The notes beneath the pieces were generated by a model, which saw nothing but the letters and a program-made list of their open reading frames with translations, made no database searches and was not told the DNA's origin. Positions 5,809 to 54,322 of a stretch of 58,877 nt of DNA are shown here, piece by piece. Position 1 is the stretch's first letter. The number at the start of each line of letters is the position of its first letter. The stretch covers positions 1 through 58,877 of the forward strand of contig JAKAPM010000005.1 of assembly GCA_021807085.1 (NCBI GenBank), in the 5' to 3' direction. The position numbers and the translations under genes are program-made. This DNA is from Nanobdellota archaeon. Lineage in GTDB: Archaea; Nanobdellota; Nanobdellia; Parvarchaeales; Parvarchaeaceae.

Positions 5809-6597
5809 ATGGCGACAATACTCTCTGTGGACAACAAGAAATTGGAGGATATAGAACTGCCGGAAATTTTCGCGCAGAAACTCAATTCGGGAGTGCTCCG
5901 CAAGGCTTTCCTTGCAGAGGAATCCGGTACTTTCCAGAAGAAATATACCGACCCATTAGCAGGAAAAAGGAAAGTTGGAGAGCTCACTAAGAGGCGTAGG
6001 TCATACAAGACCGTGTACGGCAGAGGGTATACCAGGACGCCGAAAAAGGTCCTTTCCAGGAACGGTACGCAGTTCTATTACGTAGGCGCGGTGGCACCGC
6101 ACACAGTGGGCGGAAGGCAGGCACACCCACCCAAAGCAGAGAAAAACCTGGTCAAGAAGCTGAATAAGAAAGAGAGGGCGATTGCAATAAGGATGGGAAT
6201 AGCGGCTTCGGCGGACAGAAACCTCGTCTCAAAATTCCACAGGGTTGCCCAGATGAACGACTTCCCGCTCATAATAGAAGACAAGCTCAATGATATAAAG
6301 AAGACGAAGGACCTAGAGAAGACGCTCTCGGCCCTCGGACTTGGTGAGGAGATAGGAAGGATAACGGAGAGAAAGATAAGGGCTGGAAGAGGCAAGCTCA
6401 GGGGCAGGAAATACAAGAAAAAGTTGGGCATAATCATAGTTACGTCAGACAACTCCAACATATCCGCATCGGCAAGAAACCTGAACATAACGGCGCTCAG
6501 GCCGGAGCAGTTATCCGTAAGGGACGTGTCGAACGCCGGTAGGCCGGGTAGACTGATAATCTGGACGAAGGGCGCTGTAGCGTCGATGAAGAAGTGA
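5809..6597 (+). CDS. rpl4: Ribosomal protein uL4
   Basis: L4 pattern (VAPHTVGGRQAHPPKAEK) and gene order. Confidence 0.93.
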   Translation: MATILSVDNKKLEDIELPEIFAQKLNSGVLRKAFLAEESGTFQKKYTDPLAGKRKVGELTKRRRSYKTVYGRGYTRTPKKVLSRNGTQFYYVGAVAPHTVGGRQAHPPKAEKNLVKKLNKKERAIAIRMGIAASADRNLVSKFHRVAQMNDFPLIIEDKLNDIKKTKDLEKTLSALGLGEEIGRITERKIRAGRGKLRGRKYKKKLGIIIVTSDNSNISASARNLNITALRPEQLSVRDVSNAGRPGRLIIWTKGAVASMKK

Positions 6598-20278: not shown

Positions 20279-20324
20279 GATAACGTATTAATAAACGCCC
20301 TATATAATATAATTGCGGTGCTGT

Positions 20325-20560
20325 ATACAACAGACCATAAAAGGAGGAAGTCCGTTCACTTCAAAGAGTGTACCGCAGCAATGCGGTGTGCTAACGCACA
20401 GGCTACCGAGCAGAAACGGACCCTTGCCGCGGCAATAGATGATCTAGACTGATAGCTGCGTCACGGGATGAAACGGCGGACCTACACGGTGCAAACCGGA
20501 ATTCCGGTGCTTAGTCGAATGTTGTAGTGCGAACAGAGACGCTGTGTACGCGGCGGAGTC
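20325..20560 (+). ncRNA. rnpB: RNase P RNA (approximate ends)
   Basis: CR-I-like GGAGGAAGTCCG at ~20340; GCTTAGTCGAATG (CR-IV-like) at ~20510; ACAGA near 3' end; TATA-like CTATATAATATA ~25 nt upstream. Confidence 0.8.
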
Positions 20561-20637
20561 GCAACAAAAAACGGGCTATTCAGCGCCGCTTATATTCCCT
20601 TAACGGATTTAAATTGCCATATCATAATATTTATTAT

Positions 20638-44520: not shown

Positions 44521-44530
44521 GCGTCAAGAC

Positions 44531-44613
44531 TGCAGAGGGAGGGATTTGAACCCTCGAAGGCCTGAGCCATAAGGTCCTTAGCCTTACGCGTTTGACCGCT
44601 TCGCTACCCCTGC
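44531..44613 (-). tRNA. tRNA-Leu (type II; anticodon reads AAG)
   Basis: GCAGGGG/CCTCTGC-A acceptor, TAAGG-CTAAGGA-CCTTA anticodon arm, long variable arm, GAGGG TTCAAAT CCCTC T-arm. Confidence 0.9.
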
Positions 44614-44614
44614 A
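44592..44614 (+). repeat. attL core direct repeat (within tRNA-Leu 5' part)
   Basis: TTGACCGCTTCGCTACCCCTGCA. Confidence 0.85.
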
Positions 44615-44636
44615 ACAAGAGGTAACCTAGAGGGTT

Positions 44637-44657
44637 ACTTCGCTACTTTGCCCCTAA
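44637..44657 (+). repeat. Subterminal inverted repeat, left
   Basis: ACTTCGCTACTTTGCCCCTAA; 20/21 inverted match with 54207-54227. Confidence 0.8.
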
Positions 44658-44786
44658 AGGGGCGGAAACTGCAAGCCTCCGCCCAAGCAATAGGAGATAC
44701 CAAATGGAAATACGTAATGTCAGAATAAAAAGCTTTCTGCGGTCTTTAGGTAATTTTGCTGTTAGAAATTTAAAATTTGCTAATTT

Positions 44787-44960
44787 AGACCCACACACAC
44801 ACCTAAAAAATTACCTATATTATATTCGTATTAGGTTATGTACATATATATGTATACATATATATGTAGACACATATATGTCGACATATATATGTAGACA
44901 CATATATGTCAATAAGCTGATTGAATTTTCTAAAAATCAAACTGAGGTGTGTGTGTGTCT
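44787..44960. promoter_or_regulatory. Iterated palindrome cluster flanked by CA/GT inverted repeat
   Basis: Five ACATATAT(AT)GT units at 44842, 44856, 44872, 44884, 44900; flanks AGACCCACACACACACCT and AGGTGTGTGTGTGTCT. Confidence 0.7.
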
Positions 44961-45275
44961 ATGAAAACATCTCATTTAGCCACACAATCAGCTAAAAAAG
45001 AGATTATAAAGATTTTAAATACCTATCAGGCTCGCTATGGTCTTGATCCAGCAAAATTAGTTAAAGAATTAGCACGGGATTTCGATGTAATTAAAGAGAA
45101 AAAAGTAGTGAAATGCCCTTACTGTGGACGCCAATTTTACGGTCATGAATACAACTATAAGATGCACCTATTTTCCGCACATGGCATCAACAACCTAGAT
45201 GAGTTTAACGATCCTGTCGTACCAAAAATGTCCGAGAACTCGGCAGGATCTACGGAGGTAAAACATGGAATTTAA
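44961..45275 (+). CDS. C2H2 zinc-finger viral protein
   Basis: CPYCGRQFYGHEYNYKMHLFSAH. Confidence 0.8.
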   Translation: MKTSHLATQSAKKEIIKILNTYQARYGLDPAKLVKELARDFDVIKEKKVVKCPYCGRQFYGHEYNYKMHLFSAHGINNLDEFNDPVVPKMSENSAGSTEVKHGI

Positions 45276-45396
45276 GATGAGTTGGGAAGAAAGCCTTAGT
45301 CTTGTTAGAATACAGGACCTAGCAGAGCGCCATCAGCTGATAATTACGGTGGACGGCGACAAGCAAAGCGTCAGTTTTAAGAGGGCAAATGTATGA
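45265..45396 (+). CDS. Small viral protein (43 aa)
   Basis: MEFKMSWEESLSLVRIQDLAERHQLIITVDGDKQSVSFKRANV; SD GGAGGT; overlaps neighbours. Confidence 0.6.
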   Translation: MEFKMSWEESLSLVRIQDLAERHQLIITVDGDKQSVSFKRANV

Positions 45397-45668
45397 AAGG
45401 TGCACCACAAGATTTGAAATTGATTCTAGAAGATCTAGAAGATACACGGCAAAGATTGCATAATGTTGTTAAAGATCTTGAAGATGCACGCAGAGCAAAT
45501 AAACAACTTACACAAGAACTGGAATTGGAACAAAGTAAAATTACTGTTATAAAAAATCTTTGGAATATCGCAGTTTTAGTAAACCTTAACGACGACTCGG
45601 ACTTGCAAGTACTCAAAGAACCCATCAATTGGTTTCTAAATTCAACACTAAAGGAGGAGGATAAATAA
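45393..45668 (+). CDS. Coiled-coil viral protein
   Basis: Heptad-rich LEDLEDTRQRLHNVVKDLEDARRANKQLTQELELEQ. Confidence 0.7.
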   Translation: MKGAPQDLKLILEDLEDTRQRLHNVVKDLEDARRANKQLTQELELEQSKITVIKNLWNIAVLVNLNDDSDLQVLKEPINWFLNSTLKEEDK

Positions 45669-45931
45669 TGGAAAAACCGATTAAGTGCCGCTGGTGCGAC
45701 CGCACATTTGACAACGAGTTTGATCTCAGCGAACACTTGGCGATGGCACATTACAGCACACGAGGAAACCTTAAAGCAACTTACTCTTGTTTCTGCGGTA
45801 AAAAACTAACTTACGCAGCCGAACAGCCGAAGATCATGCTGCATCTAATCGCACACCTCCGGCAAACATCGGATCCTGATCTCAGAAAAAGGATCCTGTT
45901 AGAAATCGACACTTTAACGAGGCAGCACTAA
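45668..45931 (+). CDS. Double zinc-finger viral protein
   Basis: CRWCDRTFDNEFDLSEHLAMAH and CFCGKKLTYAAEQPKIMLHLIAH; SD GGAGGAGG. Confidence 0.8.
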   Translation: MEKPIKCRWCDRTFDNEFDLSEHLAMAHYSTRGNLKATYSCFCGKKLTYAAEQPKIMLHLIAHLRQTSDPDLRKRILLEIDTLTRQH

Positions 45932-46404
45932 TGGAAAATAAACTACTCTGTCTCTGTGCCGAAGATTTTGCAGCGGTTGGAGATCTCGTAGCACACCGTC
46001 AACACTGTGAAATTTGGCAGCGCTTTATGGCAAAACAAACTTTACTCTCACAACAACAAGACGCCTCACGGCAACTCGGAACTCCTGTACAGCAGAAAGT
46101 AGCAGATCAGCCATTACCAGTCTGTGAAATCTGCGGTACAAGAGCCATCGGTTGGAAAGCGGGCAGTTTGTTGTGTGATCAACACTGGAATAAGGAGGTA
46201 ACAAATATGGCAAACGAAAACGTAGTATACACCGGCAAGCCGGAGGAGAACAAAGCGGAGGAAAAATCTGTTGAGCCAGCAGCTGCTCAGCCTGTAGAAA
46301 ATCAGGCACCGCAGCCGGTGCAGGAACAGGCTTCGGAACAGCCAGCACAACCTGAGGAGGAAAAACAGGACGAGCAGCCTAGCGCTGCCGCTCCTGCGGC
46401 GTAA
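45931..46404 (+). CDS. Zinc-finger protein with P/E/A/Q-rich tail (possible internal start at 46207)
   Basis: CLCAEDFAAVGDLVAHRQHC, CEICGTRA..LLCDQHW; AAGGAGGT upstream of internal ATG 46207. Confidence 0.7.
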   Translation: MENKLLCLCAEDFAAVGDLVAHRQHCEIWQRFMAKQTLLSQQQDASRQLGTPVQQKVADQPLPVCEICGTRAIGWKAGSLLCDQHWNKEVTNMANENVVYTGKPEENKAEEKSVEPAAAQPVENQAPQPVQEQASEQPAQPEEEKQDEQPSAAAPAA

Positions 46405-46406
46405 AC

Positions 46407-46559
46407 ATGGTATCTGATAGAAATTGGTACTGCGTCCGCTGCAAAAAACCACAAACAGTACACGACATCAAAAAATACAAGACACTGAGAAACGGCATAA
46501 TGTACACAGCGAAAGACAAGGAGGGACACAAGGTCTTTAAGATCTTTGCCAAAAAATAG
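46407..46559 (+). CDS. Small CxxC protein, DUF5679-like
   Basis: MVSDRNWYCVRCKKPQTVHDIKKYKTLRNGIMYTAKDKEGHKVFKIFAKK. Confidence 0.6.
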   Translation: MVSDRNWYCVRCKKPQTVHDIKKYKTLRNGIMYTAKDKEGHKVFKIFAKK

Positions 46560-46563
46560 ACCT

Positions 46564-46707
46564 ATGTTCCACTGGTTGAAACGTCGATTGAAAACAGGAC
46601 TTTATCTCAGCTACTACGTAGCTGGGATCAGAGTCTACGAAGTCAAACCTGTTGAGGCTGTGCGAGATCTCGTTAAGAAAGTAACAGGTAACGAGGAGGA
46701 TAAATGA
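46564..46707 (+). CDS. Small viral protein (47 aa)
   Basis: MFHWLKRRLKTGLYLSYYVAGIRVYEVKPVEAVRDLVKKVTGNEEDK. Confidence 0.5.
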   Translation: MFHWLKRRLKTGLYLSYYVAGIRVYEVKPVEAVRDLVKKVTGNEEDK

Positions 46708-47324
46708 TGGAAACCTTTGTTGAAAAAGTCGATGCCGAAGATAACGGCATACAAGGAATTGCCAAAGCGCAGTTTGATCAGCTGTCCAAAAAAGAGACGC
46801 TGGACGATGCGGAAAAACAGATCTCGGTAGCAAAGATAGATCAAAAGATGGAGAAGTTGGGACTAGCCAACGCACCGACAGGACAAACTACGCTAAATGA
46901 TAAAGCCGCCGCAAACGATCAACCTATCGAAAAGCCGGAGGATCCTGAAGCTGAGATCAGCGTTTTGGGCGCGCTCGAAATACCTGAGGTTGCATATTTT
47001 GAGATCTTGCAGACTGTGGGTTACGATTTTAACAAATACGGCGACAGGGACAGTGCTGATATTGAGGAATACACATCACAGCTGCTGCGTAAGCATCATG
47101 CGGAAAAGATGGCTGCCAGTGTCGAATTGGCTGCTGTGTTAGTATGGTTGAAACCTGCAGGCAGAGTGATCATGGCACGTCTCGCAAAATCAAAGCCGAT
47201 AGCAAACCTGCGTGCTAAGATCCGGACAGCAATACAAAAGGCAACAGGTAAAGTTGAACAGAAAACACCTGAAAATCAGGAGAATTTAGGTCAAGGAGGC
47301 AATAATGGATCTTCACTTCAATAA
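46704..47324 (+). CDS. Viral protein of unknown function
   Basis: 206 aa; SD GAGGAGG; directly upstream of ATPase. Confidence 0.7.
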   Translation: MMETFVEKVDAEDNGIQGIAKAQFDQLSKKETLDDAEKQISVAKIDQKMEKLGLANAPTGQTTLNDKAAANDQPIEKPEDPEAEISVLGALEIPEVAYFEILQTVGYDFNKYGDRDSADIEEYTSQLLRKHHAEKMAASVELAAVLVWLKPAGRVIMARLAKSKPIANLRAKIRTAIQKATGKVEQKTPENQENLGQGGNNGSSLQ

Positions 47325-47952
47325 CGCACAGCGAATAGGTATTTTAGGCAGCACAGGATCAGGTAAAAGTATCAACTTTTACTCAATAGCCAATGAACTA
47401 TTAGGTAAAGGGATAACGATATTTTACTACAATACCAGCAAAGAGCAGAAATACAAACAATACATCAAACCGCAATACCTAAAGCGCTTTATTGTGTACA
47501 TGCCACCGGACATAAAGGCACGCAACCTGCAGCATTTTGAGTTATGGCTTGCACACATCAGGGCAACATACAAGTCCGGCAACGGCAAATACTACACTAC
47601 CGCCGTCGACGATATAGATCTTTTCTATAACAGCTACAACTACACCAAGGATCTGTCTGAGGTGCTTAAGTCTCATATCGGAGAGGGCAGAAAAATCGGC
47701 ATCGGTTTTATTTGGCTATGCAAGCAGGTGCAGTATATTCCAGCGACTCTGTTCGATAACTTAGACTGGATCATAATAGGGCGGTTTAACACCATCAAAG
47801 GACTGCAGCAGCTAAAGAACTTTGCGACAGTCGACACGATCCTGACACTAAAGGAACGAAAATTTATCTGCACTGATCTGCGTCCGGAGGGACACGGAGA
47901 GCAGGCAATTATAACAGTAAAAGGAGGGAAAATATGCGAAGAGAAGATATAG
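47305..47952 (+). CDS. FtsK/HerA-superfamily (A32-like) genome-packaging ATPase
   Basis: Walker A GILGSTGSGKSINFYS; Walker B TTAVDDIDLFY; ~215 aa; SD GGAGG. Confidence 0.8.
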   Translation: MDLHFNNAQRIGILGSTGSGKSINFYSIANELLGKGITIFYYNTSKEQKYKQYIKPQYLKRFIVYMPPDIKARNLQHFELWLAHIRATYKSGNGKYYTTAVDDIDLFYNSYNYTKDLSEVLKSHIGEGRKIGIGFIWLCKQVQYIPATLFDNLDWIIIGRFNTIKGLQQLKNFATVDTILTLKERKFICTDLRPEGHGEQAIITVKGGKICEEKI

Positions 47953-48293
47953 GTAGAAACGAGGAAAGAAAAAAAGAGGATCCACAAAAGGCGGAAACTC
48001 AACAGCAGCCGAAACCTGAACAACAGGAAAAACCAAAGGATGTGGCGGAAAGCTTTGAACAAATGGATCAGATGGCTAAAAGTGACTCTGAGGGTAGCCC
48101 ACAGACTCAAAATACAGGATCGCAACAAACTTTGGTGCCGGTGGATCAACCATCAACCCAACGGCAGCGAAAAGGACACAGAAAGTACAGCTTTAGAAAG
48201 GACGCAGCGATCATTTGCGAGAAGTGCGGTCAGAAAATGCACACAGAGGCGCAGCTAGCGATGCACCTGAGGCGTAAGGACCATGCGAATTGA
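47934..48293 (+). CDS. C2H2 zinc-finger viral protein with charged N-terminus
   Basis: CEKCGQKMHTEAQLAMHLRRKDH. Confidence 0.75.
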   Translation: MRREDIGRNEERKKEDPQKAETQQQPKPEQQEKPKDVAESFEQMDQMAKSDSEGSPQTQNTGSQQTLVPVDQPSTQRQRKGHRKYSFRKDAAIICEKCGQKMHTEAQLAMHLRRKDHAN

Positions 48294-48429
48294 AAGGTTT
48301 TTGTTTTGGAGCGAGTGCAATACGTGCGGAGAAAAGACTCTCTGTAAGCGAGTATATCCCGAATATCCTCACGATACGAAAAAACATCACGACTACTGCT
48401 ACAAGTGCTTTAAGGTGTTCTATGGTTAG
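48283..48429 (+). CDS. Zinc-ribbon mini-protein (48 aa)
   Basis: MRIERFLFWSECNTCGEKTLCKRVYPEYPHDTKKHHDYCYKCFKVFYG. Confidence 0.6.
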   Translation: MRIERFLFWSECNTCGEKTLCKRVYPEYPHDTKKHHDYCYKCFKVFYG

Positions 48430-48592
48430 GGCTGTGATCGGGATCACGATCGAGTATAGGCTGCATGAAAAGGTAACGCAGAGGTTGAGCGAACAGAAAC
48501 CTAAAAAAGGTTTCTCTACGCTGATCACTGAACTGTTAGAAAAATGGCTGGTACAGGAGGGTAAAGATGGTACAAAAGCACGTCAAAAATAG
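48422..48592 (+). CDS. Ribbon-helix-helix-like DNA-binding protein
   Basis: MVRAVIGITIEYRLHEKVTQRLSEQKPKKGFSTLITELLEKWLVQEG; supplied ORF over-extended. Confidence 0.65.
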   Translation: MVRAVIGITIEYRLHEKVTQRLSEQKPKKGFSTLITELLEKWLVQEGKDGTKARQK

Positions 48593-48812
48593 ACTTTTAT
48601 ATTTTAAACAGAGAATAGTTACCATGACTGATGATGCTGGCAAAGCGATTCTTGCTATTTTAGGGCTGCTCTTCGTTGCAGTAGTCGGTAAAGTTGTGTG
48701 GGATGCGGCCACTAAGAACTATCGATGTCCACGTTGTAATTATCCTGTAAGTAAAAATCAAATGTCTTGTCCGAATTGTAAGCAGCCTTTGGATTGGAAA
48801 GATGTGAAATGA
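48567..48812 (+). CDS. TM protein with zinc ribbon (start may be 48624)
   Basis: One TM then YRCPRCNYPVSKNQMSCPNCKQPL. Confidence 0.7.
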   Translation: MVQKHVKNRLLYFKQRIVTMTDDAGKAILAILGLLFVAVVGKVVWDAATKNYRCPRCNYPVSKNQMSCPNCKQPLDWKDVK

Positions 48813-49114
48813 TGGAATTAGAAGCTAAACGACCCATTCCAGAAAAGAACTGGTTAATAAAGTGTGTCAGTGCTGTTATCACTTGCGTACATGCTTTAAG
48901 TGCTATACTTTTGGTAGTAAGTGCCTTTTCTGTGCTGTATTATTATATTTTAATCATGTTTGGTAACCTACCTTCTCCATTACAAATTCTACAATTAAAT
49001 TACAGTATCTATGTACTTGGTGGATCTACGGTTTTCTTATTTCTATATAGTGCAAAGATCCAAGAGCGTATCGAGACTTGGTTAGGGATTAGAGAAATTC
49101 AGAAGACAGATTAA
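48809..49114 (+). CDS. Viral membrane protein
   Basis: 2-3 hydrophobic segments. Confidence 0.65.
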   Translation: MMELEAKRPIPEKNWLIKCVSAVITCVHALSAILLVVSAFSVLYYYILIMFGNLPSPLQILQLNYSIYVLGGSTVFLFLYSAKIQERIETWLGIREIQKTD

Positions 49115-49329
49115 TTTGCTCGTAGCTCTGCTACAGGTACTCTAAGATCCTGATCTTTCCTGTGTTTGAGAAGATAATTGATGGTCCATGCAGCAGATAT
49201 AATAGTGCCGGCAAAGGGAATGCTATTTACTGCTACACCGAAGAGATCCTGCTGAGTAAGCCGATGATCTTTTAACCACTTGTTATGGGCATCGTTCACT
49301 TTAATCCAGTCTATGCCTAAAAATGTCAT
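49111..49329 (-). CDS. Small viral protein with one hydrophobic segment
   Basis: 72 aa; overlaps next ORF by 4 nt. Confidence 0.6.
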   Translation of the reverse strand: MTFLGIDWIKVNDAHNKWLKDHRLTQQDLFGVAVNSIPFAGTIISAAWTINYLLKHRKDQDLRVPVAELRAN

Positions 49330-49568
49330 CGAGAATTGAGCCTGTTCATTATGTCATCGAGGCGGTCCTGCTGCGCTTTGATCCTTTCAGATAGAGCTAT
49401 AAGCCTTTGATCCTGTTCGTATAGTCTAGCCTCCTGATGCTGGATGTGGTTATAGATCCCTTTGTTGATTTTTCTGATGTATTTTAATGTGGTAATAACT
49501 ATGCCGCCAAAAGATCCTATACTAGAGAGTGCTGTGGTAAGGGTTACGAGGTCCATTAGATCACCCAT
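49326..49568 (-). CDS. TM + coiled-coil viral protein
   Basis: Hydrophobic N-term then HQEARLYEQDQRLIALSERIKAQQDRLDDIMNRL. Confidence 0.65.
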   Translation of the reverse strand: MGDLMDLVTLTTALSSIGSFGGIVITTLKYIRKINKGIYNHIQHQEARLYEQDQRLIALSERIKAQQDRLDDIMNRLNSR

Positions 49569-50113
49569 GAAATGATTACGGCACCAGCTTGTGATGTATT
49601 GCCAGACCCACCATAACCAGCGATTCCCCCATAAGTATTCACTCCTGCCCCGGATGCAGTCTCTCCCTGATAGCCGTATGGTGCACCGACATTTGGTAGA
49701 CCGCCCACTCCCGGAGAACTTCCAGCGTTACCACCTCCAGCACAGGATAATAAGACCGTTCCTTCTGAATTTTCTACAGTTGTAGCAGCACCACTGCCAC
49801 CACTCGCAATAACAATAGTGACTGTCTCTCCTGCTGTAACAGTCATAGGATATGCAGCGATTGTACCGCCTGCTCCCCCCTGATTATTTGTTCCGCCATC
49901 ATTCTGACCTGCACAGCCTTGTACAGTTACATAAATTAACGTCACATTTGAAGGAACAATAAATGACCCACTAGCTGTTATAAGTTGACTTTGGGAACTA
50001 ACAGCAGGTATGGTCACGGGAACGCTTTTTATGTACAATTCGCCTGCAGAATTATAGGCTAAAGTCGATCCATCAACGTTCAACTGCGATGTTGTTGCTC
50101 CTTCCCATCCCAT
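49556..50113 (-). CDS. Glycine-rich receptor-binding/spike-like protein
   Basis: GSFIVPSNVTLIYVTVQGCAGQ...GGAGG...GETVTIVIASGGSG...GYGGSGNTSQAGAVIISW. Confidence 0.65.
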   Translation of the reverse strand: MGWEGATTSQLNVDGSTLAYNSAGELYIKSVPVTIPAVSSQSQLITASGSFIVPSNVTLIYVTVQGCAGQNDGGTNNQGGAGGTIAAYPMTVTAGETVTIVIASGGSGAATTVENSEGTVLLSCAGGGNAGSSPGVGGLPNVGAPYGYQGETASGAGVNTYGGIAGYGGSGNTSQAGAVIISWVI

Positions 50114-50114
50114 A

Positions 50115-50498
50115 CTAAATATCGATTACCTCCGCCATCAGGTCTACCGAAAAGGACATCGCCTGCGTACTCTGACCTGTTGGATTATAGGCATAGATCT
50201 TAATGGATCCCTGCGAATTGACAGGTAAAAACTTTCCAGTAGGCACTACATTTAGGATCGCTGCAGCGGCATTCCACGCCTGAAAGGCATTGCTCTGCTG
50301 GACTATACCATCTATGACGATTTTATAGAACGCATTTCCCTGAAAACCGCTGTTAACCGAGATGTTGAGTTGATGCAATCTTAGGGGTAGGTTTCCTGCA
50401 TCAAACTCAAAAAGAGGCGTATCGGGTTCGGTCGTTTGGGTAAGCGATACGCTCACATTCGTTATGCTTTTCGTTATGATTGCTCCTTGTCCTGCCAT
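50115..50498 (-). CDS. Candidate minor capsid/penton (beta-rich) protein
   Basis: 127 aa beta-rich sequence between spike-like and TM proteins; SD GGAGGG. Confidence 0.5.
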   Translation of the reverse strand: MAGQGAIITKSITNVSVSLTQTTEPDTPLFEFDAGNLPLRLHQLNISVNSGFQGNAFYKIVIDGIVQQSNAFQAWNAAAAILNVVPTGKFLPVNSQGSIKIYAYNPTGQSTQAMSFSVDLMAEVIDI

Positions 50499-50927
50499 TT
50501 AAAACCCTCCAGTCCACGCCTTTACTTTCGGCTGTGGCAAGCCGGAAGCAGAAGCGTTTGTTACGCCGCTCTGTACGGCTGAATTGTTGTTTTCCGGTGT
50601 TGAAACGATCGTAGGTGCCTGATTATTCACTGAGATACTGGATGGAAGATTGGGCGCAGCGATAGATCCCAGCTGCGGTGCCTGAAAGTTGAGGGTAGGG
50701 TTGGTTTGGTTGAGCGCCTGGTCAAGCTGCAGCTGGTTGATCTCATCCTGCAAATATCCGCTAGTGGATCCGGATGCAGAAGCCACTGCTGCTGTATTCG
50801 TACTTTGCTGTGTGGCATTAGACTGGATGAGTGCATTCGTTTGTGAGGATTTATAGAACAGATAACCTATCGTGCCGACTAAGGCTGCTATCCCCCCTCC
50901 TATCAAGACTTTATATGCCGTTTTCAT
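50499..50927 (-). CDS. Virion membrane-associated protein candidate
   Basis: N-terminal TM then Q/N/S-rich region. Confidence 0.6.
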   Translation of the reverse strand: MKTAYKVLIGGGIAALVGTIGYLFYKSSQTNALIQSNATQQSTNTAAVASASGSTSGYLQDEINQLQLDQALNQTNPTLNFQAPQLGSIAAPNLPSSISVNNQAPTIVSTPENNNSAVQSGVTNASASGLPQPKVKAWTGGF

Positions 50928-51493
50928 AAAAGCGAACTCTTTTGCTGCACTATCAGCTTTTGCTGGTTGGTTGTCTTGTTAGTAAGATCGGGGTTCTGCT
51001 GGTTTTTGTACGAGTTTGTGTTGCTGAGGTTCGGATTTACGGTATACTCAGAGGTAACATTAACAGGAGTCGTATAGCTGACGGACTCTGAGGTCTGAGG
51101 CGCATAGCTGATAGTATAGGTAGGCGCCACAATTTCAGAATTGTTAGAAGCGTTAAGCGTAGGATTAGAAGCCAATCCATAAACCTGTGATGGATTCAAC
51201 TCCGATCCACCGGTTGTCGGGTTAGAGGCTGACTGTGGCGACGTCGCGCCTCCGCCACCTGTCGTGGATCCACTTTGGCTGTTAGACTGCTGGTCATTAC
51301 CCAAACCTGCGTTGTTGCCGCCACCGGCATTCTGTCCGCCCAAGCCACCCAATAAAAAAAGGGCTAGCAAACCTCCGCCGGCTGCTAGTGCTGTGGCTAT
51401 GATAGCGACTTTATGCTTCTTAACGAAAGAAGCGCTACTTTTAGCTGCCTTTTTCCCTGCTTCTAAAGCTTTTCCCTGTGGTGTTATTGCCAT
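50924..51493 (-). CDS. Virion membrane-associated protein candidate
   Basis: Basic N-term + TM (KVAIIATALAAGGGLLALFLLGG) then G/S/N-rich region. Confidence 0.6.
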   Translation of the reverse strand: MAITPQGKALEAGKKAAKSSASFVKKHKVAIIATALAAGGGLLALFLLGGLGGQNAGGGNNAGLGNDQQSNSQSGSTTGGGGATSPQSASNPTTGGSELNPSQVYGLASNPTLNASNNSEIVAPTYTISYAPQTSESVSYTTPVNVTSEYTVNPNLSNTNSYKNQQNPDLTNKTTNQQKLIVQQKSSLL

Positions 51494-51524
51494 ATCGGTC
51501 TTAGATAAGCGACCTGCTGTAGAT

Positions 51525-52481
51525 CTACTTGCGTGGCTCTATCCAGTACTCTCTCAGAATACCGCTAGTACCATTCAGCAAAGCTGGTGCGCTTGCGAAG
51601 TCTATGTTCAGTGCCGTAACGCCGCTTGCGTTGAACGGATCTGTGAACAGGTTAACTATCCCGTCTACGTGTCCGGAAACCGGATAGACTGTGTCTTCTC
51701 TGTCAATCAGGGATTGCAGAGCTATGTTCGGCAATTCCGGTGTCTCTCCGTTGGCAGCGAAGAAGATCGTGTCTATATTCGCATCGGCCCCGTACTGCAG
51801 GAACTGCGACTGTATGACTACGCCTTTGTCGTAGTTGTAGCCTAGATTCTGAGTGCCTGCGCCAAGATTGCTTATCTGTGCTGCCTTCAATATTGCTGTT
51901 GGAACTCCCTCTTTAGTGAAAGTACCGTAAACCTGCAGCCTTGCGGTGCCGCTTGAAAGAGCGGTGGATCCCGTCGTAAGACTGGCCAGTGTGTTAAGCT
52001 CGAATTCAGGTCTCAGATCGAAGTCGCTGAAATTTATACCGTAGGGTATGACAAGATTCCACACGTAAGTATAAGTGTCGCTTGCAGCCTGTCCGCTTGG
52101 CGTGGTGGAAGGTGTGTACTTGCCCTGAAATGTCAGGTACCTAGCCCAGATGCTTATATCGTTTTTAGTGCCGTCCATGTTGAAAAGCACCGATCCGCTG
52201 CCTTTACCGGACGAAAGTTGGAATTTCTTTAAGACTGTCTCTATAGGTGTGTTGCCGCTCGGTGCGGTTGAACCTGTAGTCTCTGTTACAGTGAGCGTAA
52301 GCTTCATGCCTTTAAGGTTTCTCTTACCATAAGGAGAGAAAACGTTGGGTGTCAAAGGTACTGTGTTAGCGCCTAGATTGACTTGTCCTGAGTCGTACAT
52401 CAACTGGTCCTTTAGATCAGGTACGGATGATCCGCCAGATGCTCCTGCCTTCTTAAATATTCCTAATATACTGAATCCCAT
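51525..52481 (-). CDS. Candidate major capsid protein (double jelly-roll-like)
   Basis: 318 aa beta-rich, no TM, strong SD AAGGAGGT, within structural module. Confidence 0.6.
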   Translation of the reverse strand: MGFSILGIFKKAGASGGSSVPDLKDQLMYDSGQVNLGANTVPLTPNVFSPYGKRNLKGMKLTLTVTETTGSTAPSGNTPIETVLKKFQLSSGKGSGSVLFNMDGTKNDISIWARYLTFQGKYTPSTTPSGQAASDTYTYVWNLVIPYGINFSDFDLRPEFELNTLASLTTGSTALSSGTARLQVYGTFTKEGVPTAILKAAQISNLGAGTQNLGYNYDKGVVIQSQFLQYGADANIDTIFFAANGETPELPNIALQSLIDREDTVYPVSGHVDGIVNLFTDPFNASGVTALNIDFASAPALLNGTSGILREYWIEPRK

Positions 52482-52493
52482 GTGTTTACCTCC

Positions 52494-52766
52494 TTACTGT
52501 TGTATACCTGCCTTAGCTAGACCAAGCCGAAGACTCGCTAAGGATACTACACCGATGCCGCTAGCTTCGAGTGCATCTGAGACACCATCGACTTTTGTTA
52601 TGTAGCCGACAAAAGCGGCTATTGCACCACCAGCAATCATCAGACCATCAGTGACATTACTATATTCAGGCGCTTTGTCTAGGACGTATGCTGCCACCGT
52701 TTCCTCTGCAACTGCCGCCCCTATAGTGAAACCTGTTGCTAAAAGTACTCTGTGTGCTGCTTTCAT
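52494..52766 (-). CDS. Small viral membrane protein
   Basis: 90 aa hydrophobic; SD GGAGGT. Confidence 0.65.
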   Translation of the reverse strand: MKAAHRVLLATGFTIGAAVAEETVAAYVLDKAPEYSNVTDGLMIAGGAIAAFVGYITKVDGVSDALEASGIGVVSLASLRLGLAKAGIQQ

Positions 52767-52769
52767 AAC

Positions 52770-53123
52770 CTAGTTACCTCCATTTTTACTGTCAGATGAC
52801 TGACCCTGTACGCCTTTTGCGGTGGCGTTGAACTGTACCAGATGCCAACTCATGGCGATCGGTACTGCGAATATCAAAGAAACGAGAACTACGAACAGCG
52901 TTATGCCAACTTTTGTAAAGACACCGAAGTATCCTAACAGGCAAGTAATCGCTATCAGCGTGAGCATGATCTCCAAACCGAGCCAAACGTGTTCATCGAA
53001 GCCGCCGTTCTTAAAAACGTGGAAAGTCGCATCCTGCAGCTGTACTGCTTTGGGTGCGGAAGGATCGGCAACCTGCGGCTTTGATGCTGCTGCATTTACT
53101 GGTGCTGGATTAGAATTTTCCAT
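52770..53123 (-). CDS. Small viral membrane protein
   Basis: Two TM segments. Confidence 0.65.
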   Translation of the reverse strand: MENSNPAPVNAAASKPQVADPSAPKAVQLQDATFHVFKNGGFDEHVWLGLEIMLTLIAITCLLGYFGVFTKVGITLFVVLVSLIFAVPIAMSWHLVQFNATAKGVQGQSSDSKNGGN

Positions 53124-53182
53124 CTCTACTTTTTAAGAGATGAGAACTCGCTTTTAAAGACCCTATTTATTTACCTATTTAC

Positions 53183-53932
53183 CTATTTATTTATAAGTGC
53201 TGATGCAACAGCTGATTTTATTTCTGCTCTTAAAAACTTAGCTAAATTCTGCTGTTTGTTTTGAGGTAAAATAGCCTCCGCCATCTCCTCAGCTGTCGGC
53301 TCCCTGATGTATCTTGTAGCTGCTCTCATGCGCTCATCTTTCCAGCCAGCTGCATATTGTATCAGGATCGGATTTCTAACCTTGCGCTTGTGAACAAGAA
53401 AAGAGAGCCTAGCACCTCTGAACAGATGAGGATTCAGGTCCGAGTGATCACAAAGATAACGGGTAACGCGCTTACGCAGCATGTTATCAACAGCAGGGAT
53501 ACGTTTAACGTTACCGCCCTTCATGCGCAGTGGACGCATGTAAGTATAGATCTGCGGATCTCCGAACAGATAGCTGTTTTGCTGCAGGTACTTGTGCTTA
53601 TTCATCCAATTATGTATTTCGCTGAACAGCAGATTGAACTCAGGCTCAAGAGGTAATACTGGCATGGCCTTAATAAAATTATCTGATCTCTTCCTGACTT
53701 TTATCTGAATGATGTAAGCGTCCTGATTCAACAGCCTGACCTGCTGCACATCCTCCTTTTTCAGCGTGCATATCTCTGAGATCCTAGAGGAGGTTAGATA
53801 AGCCATCGCTATTATCACTCTGTATTTCTGATGGGGTATCGCCATGATCCTGTAAAGGATCTCTTCCGCTGGCAGAGACTGCGCAAACTTCTTACGGATG
53901 TTGTAGTCTTGTATCCTAACAGCAAATACCAT
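53183..53932 (-). CDS. Tyrosine recombinase/integrase
   Basis: SRISEICTLKKEDV (Arg I), HLFRGARLSFLVH (HxxR), GWKDERMRAATRYI (catalytic Tyr). Confidence 0.9.
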   Translation of the reverse strand: MVFAVRIQDYNIRKKFAQSLPAEEILYRIMAIPHQKYRVIIAMAYLTSSRISEICTLKKEDVQQVRLLNQDAYIIQIKVRKRSDNFIKAMPVLPLEPEFNLLFSEIHNWMNKHKYLQQNSYLFGDPQIYTYMRPLRMKGGNVKRIPAVDNMLRKRVTRYLCDHSDLNPHLFRGARLSFLVHKRKVRNPILIQYAAGWKDERMRAATRYIREPTAEEMAEAILPQNKQQNLAKFLRAEIKSAVASALINK

Positions 53933-54021
53933 AAAGTTATTGTGAGAATAGCTATAGTATTTAAGCTTTTATTTCGTGTTATGAAGCAAAACTATTTAAA
54001 TACATAATTACTAAAAATACT

Positions 54022-54174
54022 ATGACAGAGACCCTCGAATTCGATGTTAACGTTCGAAAAAACCCGTCCGCTTTCGGCGAATACGGTAAAATCGTCTCAA
54101 AACACCTTGCACCTTTCATCGATAAGAGAGTTCACGTCAAAATTAAGCTGATCAAGGAGAATAAAAAGACTTAA
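54022..54174 (+). CDS. Small protein (50 aa), divergent from integrase
   Basis: MTETLEFDVNVRKNPSAFGEYGKIVSKHLAPFIDKRVHVKIKLIKENKKT; upstream TATTTAAATA. Confidence 0.6.
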   Translation: MTETLEFDVNVRKNPSAFGEYGKIVSKHLAPFIDKRVHVKIKLIKENKKT

Positions 54175-54206
54175 ATTTCAGCAATACATCACATCAAATA
54201 TCATAA

Positions 54207-54227
54207 TTAGAGGCAAAGTAGCGAAGT
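54207..54227 (-). repeat. Subterminal inverted repeat, right
   Basis: TTAGAGGCAAAGTAGCGAAGT. Confidence 0.8.
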
Positions 54228-54249
54228 TGACCGCTTCGCTACCTCTGCA
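54227..54249 (+). repeat. attR core: stranded 5' end of tRNA-Leu
   Basis: TTGACCGCTTCGCTACCTCTGCA. Confidence 0.85.
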
Positions 54250-54271
54250 TGAGTAGTTTTAACCAAGTTTT

Positions 54272-54284
54272 ACCTTATAAATTT
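54272..54284 (-). promoter_or_regulatory. Candidate stranded tRNA-Leu TATA box
   Basis: Minus strand AATTTATAAGG ~30 bp upstream of the stranded tRNA 5' end (54248). Confidence 0.5.
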
Positions 54285-54322
54285 ACCACACAGTTGCCGG
54301 GCACGGCCTTCGGCGGCGTTAC

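Follow-up and report, generated by a model that had tools for sequence, protein, structure and literature searches.

We report that a Nanobdellota archaeon carries a 9.6-kb provirus between a gene for tRNA-Leu(AAG) and a displaced copy of the 5' end of that same tRNA, within a contig of 58,877 nt that is referred to here as the window. The observations are best explained, and in our judgement very probably, by integration at the 5' end of the tRNA gene. The active tRNA thereby has a virus-derived 5' part, for which the virus would also supply a promoter, and the original 5' part and promoter of the host are stranded at the far end of the provirus. The window corresponds to contig C20 in a genome bin of 675 kb (24 contigs; completeness 91%, estimated contamination 1.3%) whose tRNA promoters are of the TATA type. 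Related genomes are small (0.4-1.4 Mb) and point to a host with a reduced genome. The features that carry the argument, including the attachment (att) sites, are as follows.

44614..54226, no strand: provirus body, missing from the collinear relative G017 (contig C18)
44531..44613, minus strand: tRNA-Leu(AAG), called by ARAGORN; positions 1 to ~15 assigned to the virus and the remainder to the host from crossover geometry and a genus tally
44592..44614, minus strand: attL core, the 23-nt copy within the active tRNA, GCAGGGG form (direct repeat D8)
54227..54249, minus strand: attR core, the stranded host tRNA 5' end, GCAGAGG form (direct repeat D8)
54218..54242, no strand: perfect 9-7-9 inverted repeat, GTAGCGAAG-TTGACCG-CTTCGCTAC as read on the plus strand, 0 mismatches
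44618..44657, no strand: left-end inverted arm (inverted repeat I2, 40 nt, 80% complementary to 54207-54246)
54273..54284 (about), minus strand: stranded host tRNA promoter AAATTTATAAGG, preceding the displaced 5' end (54248) by ~30 bp
44722..44735, minus strand: candidate viral promoter AAGCTTTTTATTCT, profile score 11.97, the same in a second provirus of the bin
44614..44702, minus strand: putative 5' leader of the tRNA, with the transcription start inferred near 44702
53183..53932, minus strand: integrase, an uninterrupted tyrosine recombinase (PF00589, E 4e-7; phrog_1, E 4e-7)

The integration is real. In G017, a relative of the same genus, contig C18 is collinear with the window from 40.7 to 44.6 kb, continues through the tRNA and then passes directly to the equivalent of 54.33-58.88 kb, such that the tRNA of G017 adjoins the orthologue of the gene sited beyond attR in the window. 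This provirus-free locus, together with the att repeat at the 5' part of the tRNA, bears out the insertion at the 5' end of tRNA-Leu that had been proposed in an earlier, sequence-only reading of the window. ARAGORN placed the tRNA-Leu(AAG) gene at 44530-44614 on the minus strand, and the mature gene at 44531-44613 was read from the sequence. The inserted DNA encodes an A32-like ATPase and small proteins that resemble zinc fingers, along with several minus-strand genes, one of them for a putative capsid protein, and the intact tyrosine integrase.

Inspection of the two att cores reveals identity at 22 of 23 nt, where the one mismatch (C44609 versus T54244) corresponds to tRNA position 5 and presents as G versus A. 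Only three copies of the core are found in the genome bin. The start of the direct repeat coincides exactly with the first spacer base of the 9-7-9 inverted repeat, a structure for which the chance expectation in the window is 0, even when 3 mismatches are allowed. The 9-7-9 repeat presumably represents the integrase core sites around a 7-bp overlap. Because the direct repeat begins at the spacer, the crossover is placed in the D-loop of the tRNA (CGGTCAA on the tRNA strand), and a D-loop crossover in turn assigns tRNA positions 1 to ~15 (44613-44599) to the virus and the copy ending at 54248 to the host. This geometry agrees with the sequence-only reading, which had the 5' end of the active gene come from the virus and that of the host remain at attR. 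In attB, the arm GTAGCGAAG belongs to the tRNA, while in attP it is mirrored by viral sequence. The inverted arms at 44618-44657 and 54207-54246 would flank the attP core, where they are presumed to form a further binding site for the integrase. As a shared site in genome_contigs, the core palindrome returned seven bacterial matches, about the chance level for 18 fixed bases, and was set aside.

The integrase scores 30.4 bits against PF00589 (cut-off 27.1) and retains the full catalytic R-K-HxxR-W-Y set (R50, K81, H169, R172, W197 and Y208). Its open reading frame (ORF) is intact and lies 294 bp from the att core, which leaves attP outside the gene. PF00589 alone was matched, with PF16795 (Phage_integr_3) absent at E values up to 0.01, and no relatives of the protein were found in genome_contigs or phages. 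Its structure model is of poor quality.

A related provirus (provirus 2) is present on contig C2 of the same bin (8037 bp), where its left end is ~94% identical to that of the window over 900 bp. Provirus 2 occupies the 5' end of tRNA-Leu(UAG), again with GCAGGGG, and this tRNA plus its flank is 96% identical. On its host side, C2 corresponds to the genes that lie downstream of tRNA-Leu(UAG) in relatives, and the sequences show two leucine isoacceptors as targets. The sequence-only reading had noted neither this second provirus nor the 9-7-9 repeat nor the candidate viral promoter AAGCTTTTTATTCT. Most relatives have tRNA-Leu(UAG) immediately after an MBF1-like gene, and no clear promoter precedes the tRNA itself (scores mostly <5 on the promoter profile described below; L042-L064), so integration at its 5' end would sever it from a shared transcript. 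A more distant case is suggested by a homologue of the putative capsid protein in G253, a genome from another family of the class (G253:C37, E 8.9e-9). On contig C37 of G253, a minus-strand tRNA-Ser(AGA) is followed by a provirus that comprises a zinc-finger-like gene, the homologue of the putative capsid protein, an ATPase-like gene and an integrase truncated where the contig stops. A 20/20-nt copy of the 5' end of this tRNA-Ser lies near the start of contig C2 of G253, preceded by an integrase N-terminal part and a small plus-strand ORF, and followed by ABC transporter genes. The order of integrase, small plus-strand ORF and attR is identical in the G253 provirus and the window. The two G253 contigs likely adjoin, as halves of one split provirus, and a distant relative has probably integrated at the 5' end of tRNA-Ser(AGA).

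To score promoters, we used a redundancy-weighted profile of the upstream regions of 26 genus tRNA-Leu(AAG) genes, for which real promoters score 4.3-14.0 in leave-one-out analysis. The stranded site scores 5.9 at -39, within that range, and random window anchors reach 5.9 in 3.2% of cases. The sequence-only reading had described AAATTTATAAGG as a TATA-like site ~30 bp upstream of the stranded 5' end and directed toward the integrase; both points hold, with the integrase 316 bp off. On the viral side of the active tRNA, the best site between -48 and -28 scores -8.4, below all 26 profile promoters. The earlier impression that the active tRNA has no promoter in viral DNA holds for the region near -30 but is weakened farther out, where the promoter-like AAGCTTTTTATTCT spans -122..-109 upstream of the tRNA. 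This 12.0-bit site is identical in both proviruses, and a fraction of 1.4e-4 of the positions in the window reach its score. In the G253 provirus, a TATA site, TTTTATAAAC, is present on the viral side at the usual distance (from -38; 9.2 bits; random 0.9%), which supports the general idea that such viruses bring a promoter.

Transcription from AAGCTTTTTATTCT would produce a tRNA with a leader of ~90 nt, and such a leader could be trimmed because an archaeal RNase P RNA is encoded in the bin (window 20315-20589, above the family cut-off). Within the leader a hairpin may form, in which, from the window's provirus to provirus 2, one C-G pair changes to U-A and one G.U pair to A-U. Formation on the tRNA strand is favoured by the G.U pair, and the single compensatory change constitutes weak evidence for the hairpin. 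An ORF at 44704-44964, which has a fair ribosome-binding site and would overlap the candidate promoter, was rejected as a gene; differences between the two proviruses are distributed 11/15/12 over its codon positions, with no coding signal.

The one-base difference between the att cores alters the acceptor stem of the tRNA. Opposite the 3' strand CCTCTGC, the GCAGGGG of the active gene forms a G5.U68 wobble while the stranded GCAGAGG would pair perfectly, which confirms what the sequence-only reading had noted. Acceptor stems were tallied for tRNA-Leu(AAG) and tRNA-Leu(UAG) across 28 genus genomes. Where the 3' strand is CCCTCTGC, the type found in the window, 35 of 36 genes have GCAGAGG and the sole GCAGGGG is that of the window. 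Where it is TCCTCCTGC, GCAGGGG is present in every gene (12/12), the occupied gene on contig C2 included. The GCAGGGG form is native elsewhere: of the 23 other tRNA-Leu(UAG) genes, 10 have it, as do two AAG genes. Because 35 of the 36 genes with the same 3' strand have GCAGAGG, this was in all likelihood the host's own 5' end, and GCAGGGG was brought by the virus. The empty-site relative G017 has GCAGGGG, yet there it is matched by CTCCTGC and stands beside the same upstream gene, so that G017 is not a relative of the kind that would contradict the sequence-only reading. The tally and this collinear empty locus uphold GCAGAGG as the ancestral form.

We propose that a circular archaeal viral genome recombined with the host tRNA-Leu(AAG) gene by means of its tyrosine integrase, with crossover in the D-loop (CGGTCAA). 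The viral attP bears tRNA positions 1-22, such that integration yields a full tRNA gene from a viral 5' part and a host 3' part and leaves the host 5' part, together with its promoter, stranded at the far end, as the sequence shows. The viral 5' part, of a kind that many tRNA-Leu(UAG) genes of the genus have, changes base 5 of tRNA-Leu(AAG) from A to G, and an A-U pair to G.U. The rebuilt tRNA would most likely be transcribed from the conserved viral promoter ~120 bp upstream and trimmed by RNase P. In the free circle, this viral promoter would run through attP toward the integrase (~400 nt), whereas in the provirus the stranded host tRNA promoter would take its place before the integrase. A broader reading, which we put forward tentatively and would not yet favour, is that these elements form a virus family of small-genome archaea specialised in tRNA 5' ends. 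Such a family would have non-suicidal integrases and an attP that carries a tRNA 5' part plus a promoter; essential host tRNAs would come under viral promoters, one 5' part would serve two leucine isoacceptors via a tolerated wobble, and the promoter at the integrase would be swapped on integration, from the viral one to the stranded one of the host tRNA.

Several points weigh against this account. The assembly lacks the right end of provirus 2, and contig C2, of only 8 kb, ends inside the provirus. The join between the two G253 contigs is unproven, and the integrase of the tRNA-Ser provirus gives no match to that of the window. The candidate viral promoter is much farther out than any genus tRNA-Leu(AAG) promoter, and a ~90-nt leader needs removal; no viral-side TATA is present at -48..-28. 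The state of contig C2 would fit an origin in another strain that was co-binned, in which case the two proviruses would never have shared one cell. That the MBF1-like gene, the upstream neighbour of tRNA-Leu(UAG), was likewise not found in the bin is in keeping with such an origin, which we nonetheless consider unlikely since the only tRNA-Leu(UAG) of the bin sits on C2 and contamination is estimated at just 1.3%. We are similarly doubtful that, in the provirus, the integrase is expressed from the stranded promoter of the host tRNA, with excision regulated in this way. The promoter does face the gene from 316 bp, and the same idea has been published for pTN3, where the stranded tRNA promoter might transcribe the C-terminal piece of the integrase (PMC8371274), but here the integrase gene comes with its own candidate promoters, and a five-T run (54167-54163, minus strand) and an opposing small ORF intervene.

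Less probable again is that the virus lacks a dedicated promoter, such that the tRNA would be made by read-through of a leftward viral transcript, or made poorly with the host tolerating the loss. While the empty -48..-28 interval would be expected under such a scheme, the transcript has no obvious source, as it is the plus strand that carries the likely viral genes between 44949 and 49114. Read-through also leaves aside the strong promoter-like site conserved in both proviruses and the TATA that the tRNA-Ser provirus brings at the usual distance. Moreover, host genes use CUU/CUC codons often (89 occurrences in eight genes) and no other tRNA-Leu for CUU/CUC was found in the bin, so tRNA-Leu(AAG) is probably essential and must be expressed. 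We infer that the rebuilt tRNA is most likely transcribed from the viral promoter. Finally, a mutation after integration is a very improbable source of the G at tRNA position 5, for although single mutations do occur and a single base differs, the position of the crossover puts that base on the viral side, the second provirus carries the same G in another tRNA gene, and A is present in 35/36 genus tRNAs with this 3' strand.

Integration at the 5' end with a viral 5' part and promoter can be compared with several known systems. The pTN3-like integrases have been called unique in archaea for their use of the 5' half of a tRNA gene (2021 review, PMC8371274); expression of the rebuilt tRNA is attributed there to the integrase promoter, and comparable cases in bacteria are described as rare (PMC8371274). 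In pTN3, a 41-bp att lies inside the integrase gene and tRNA-Leu is parted from its promoter (PMC5495485). As for pTN3 and TKV4 of the Thermococcales, attB here is the 5' half of a tRNA-Leu gene, and the rebuilt tRNA is cut off from its original promoter. In contrast to the present system, IntpTN3 is suicidal, has attP in the integrase gene and belongs to a family that carries PF16795, whereas here attP lies outside an intact gene that matches PF00589 only. The att is also 23 bp rather than 41 bp, with a D-loop crossover, and the candidate tRNA promoter is non-coding and at the opposite end from the integrase. Rare bacterial elements at tRNA 5' ends, reportedly described by Zhao and Williams in 2002 and by Williams in 2002 (as cited in PMC6563490 and PMC8371274), are said to supply the upstream side of the gene; unlike here, hosts and promoters are bacterial. 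The only such case among the 39 tRNA insertions of a thaumarchaeal survey is CalSub-E1 of Ca. Caldiarchaeum subterraneum, in a tRNA-Ser, and the passages of that survey devoted to it describe no promoter or base exchange (PMC6563490). Integrations of the SSV1 type, on the 3' side, likewise involve a tyrosine integrase and a tRNA target, with inverted core sites that flank an overlap located in a loop of the tRNA (PMC8371274), but they restore the 3' side and the tRNA stays on its own promoter.

The principle of integration into the 5' half of a tRNA gene is already known, and the present system is a different, non-suicidal variant, distinct from the pTN3 type because both the split gene and PF16795 are absent. 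Here, related viruses occupy two or three different tRNA genes, with a host tRNA base visibly altered in one. Elements at tRNA 3' ends spare the transcription start of the tRNA, whereas insertion at the 5' end obliges the element to provide for the transcription of a gene that is probably essential. A different archaeal integrase type uses the 5' end of two tRNA-Leu genes, with a related provirus probably at tRNA-Ser, and promoter swapping at tRNA genes becomes testable as a lysogeny switch. The window also presents a case of a provirus that alters the acceptor stem of a host tRNA.

Three further genes of the provirus were annotated.

47305..47952, plus strand: A32-like packaging ATPase (PF04665, E 1.7e-6, above cut-off; phrog_2666, E 1e-8)
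51525..52481, minus strand: putative capsid protein, a guess from position and the G253 homologue
54022..54174, plus strand: small ORF of 50 aa between the integrase and attR, with a small plus-strand ORF at the same place in the G253 provirus

The packaging ATPase, of the A32/FtsK type, is a trait shared with tailless DNA viruses that encode an A32-like ATPase. No relatives of the ATPase were found in phages. Considered as a jelly-roll capsid protein of such viruses, the putative capsid protein gave no profile match, and its structure model has a predicted local distance difference test (pLDDT) score of 32, too low for use; a capsid match in G170 was judged to be chance. The 50-aa ORF, opposite in strand to the integrase, is a candidate excision or regulatory factor. 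Integrase matches in G010 and G013 are short remnants and not proviruses at tRNAs, and no tRNA was present within the ~3 kb examined around any of 29 other integrase loci of the class. Near-identical short integrase C-terminal remnants occur in two genus species (L066 14932-15342 and L068 4433-4855) with the gene of a 417-aa ATPase on one side and, on the other, a surface-protein gene whose start resembles a class III signal; they are probably what is left of a decayed integrated element.

The early intergenic region holds an array of ~14-bp palindromes of the ACATATATATGT type at 44842-44911. In the same place, provirus 2 (L006 about 6370-6425) has an array of different palindromes (ACATCTAGATGT, ACAGCTAGATGT) with flanks that are ~94% identical. 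The arrays look like operator or origin repeats that diverged together, and such divergence could let two such proviruses coexist. The array is bracketed by CACACACACACC (~44791-44804) and its inverted partner GGTGTGTGTGTG (44946-44960), both conserved in the two proviruses.

All genus tRNA-Leu genes seen for the CUU/CUC box have the anticodon AAG and none has GAG (window 44530-44614; L014-L062), and the tRNA-Ser(AGA) of G253 lies at L135 2999-3080. Anticodons with A34 are uncommon in archaea. Of 27 genus genomes, 16 encode a protein of deaminase fold (PF00383), the present genome among them, and this protein may be a tRNA deaminase.

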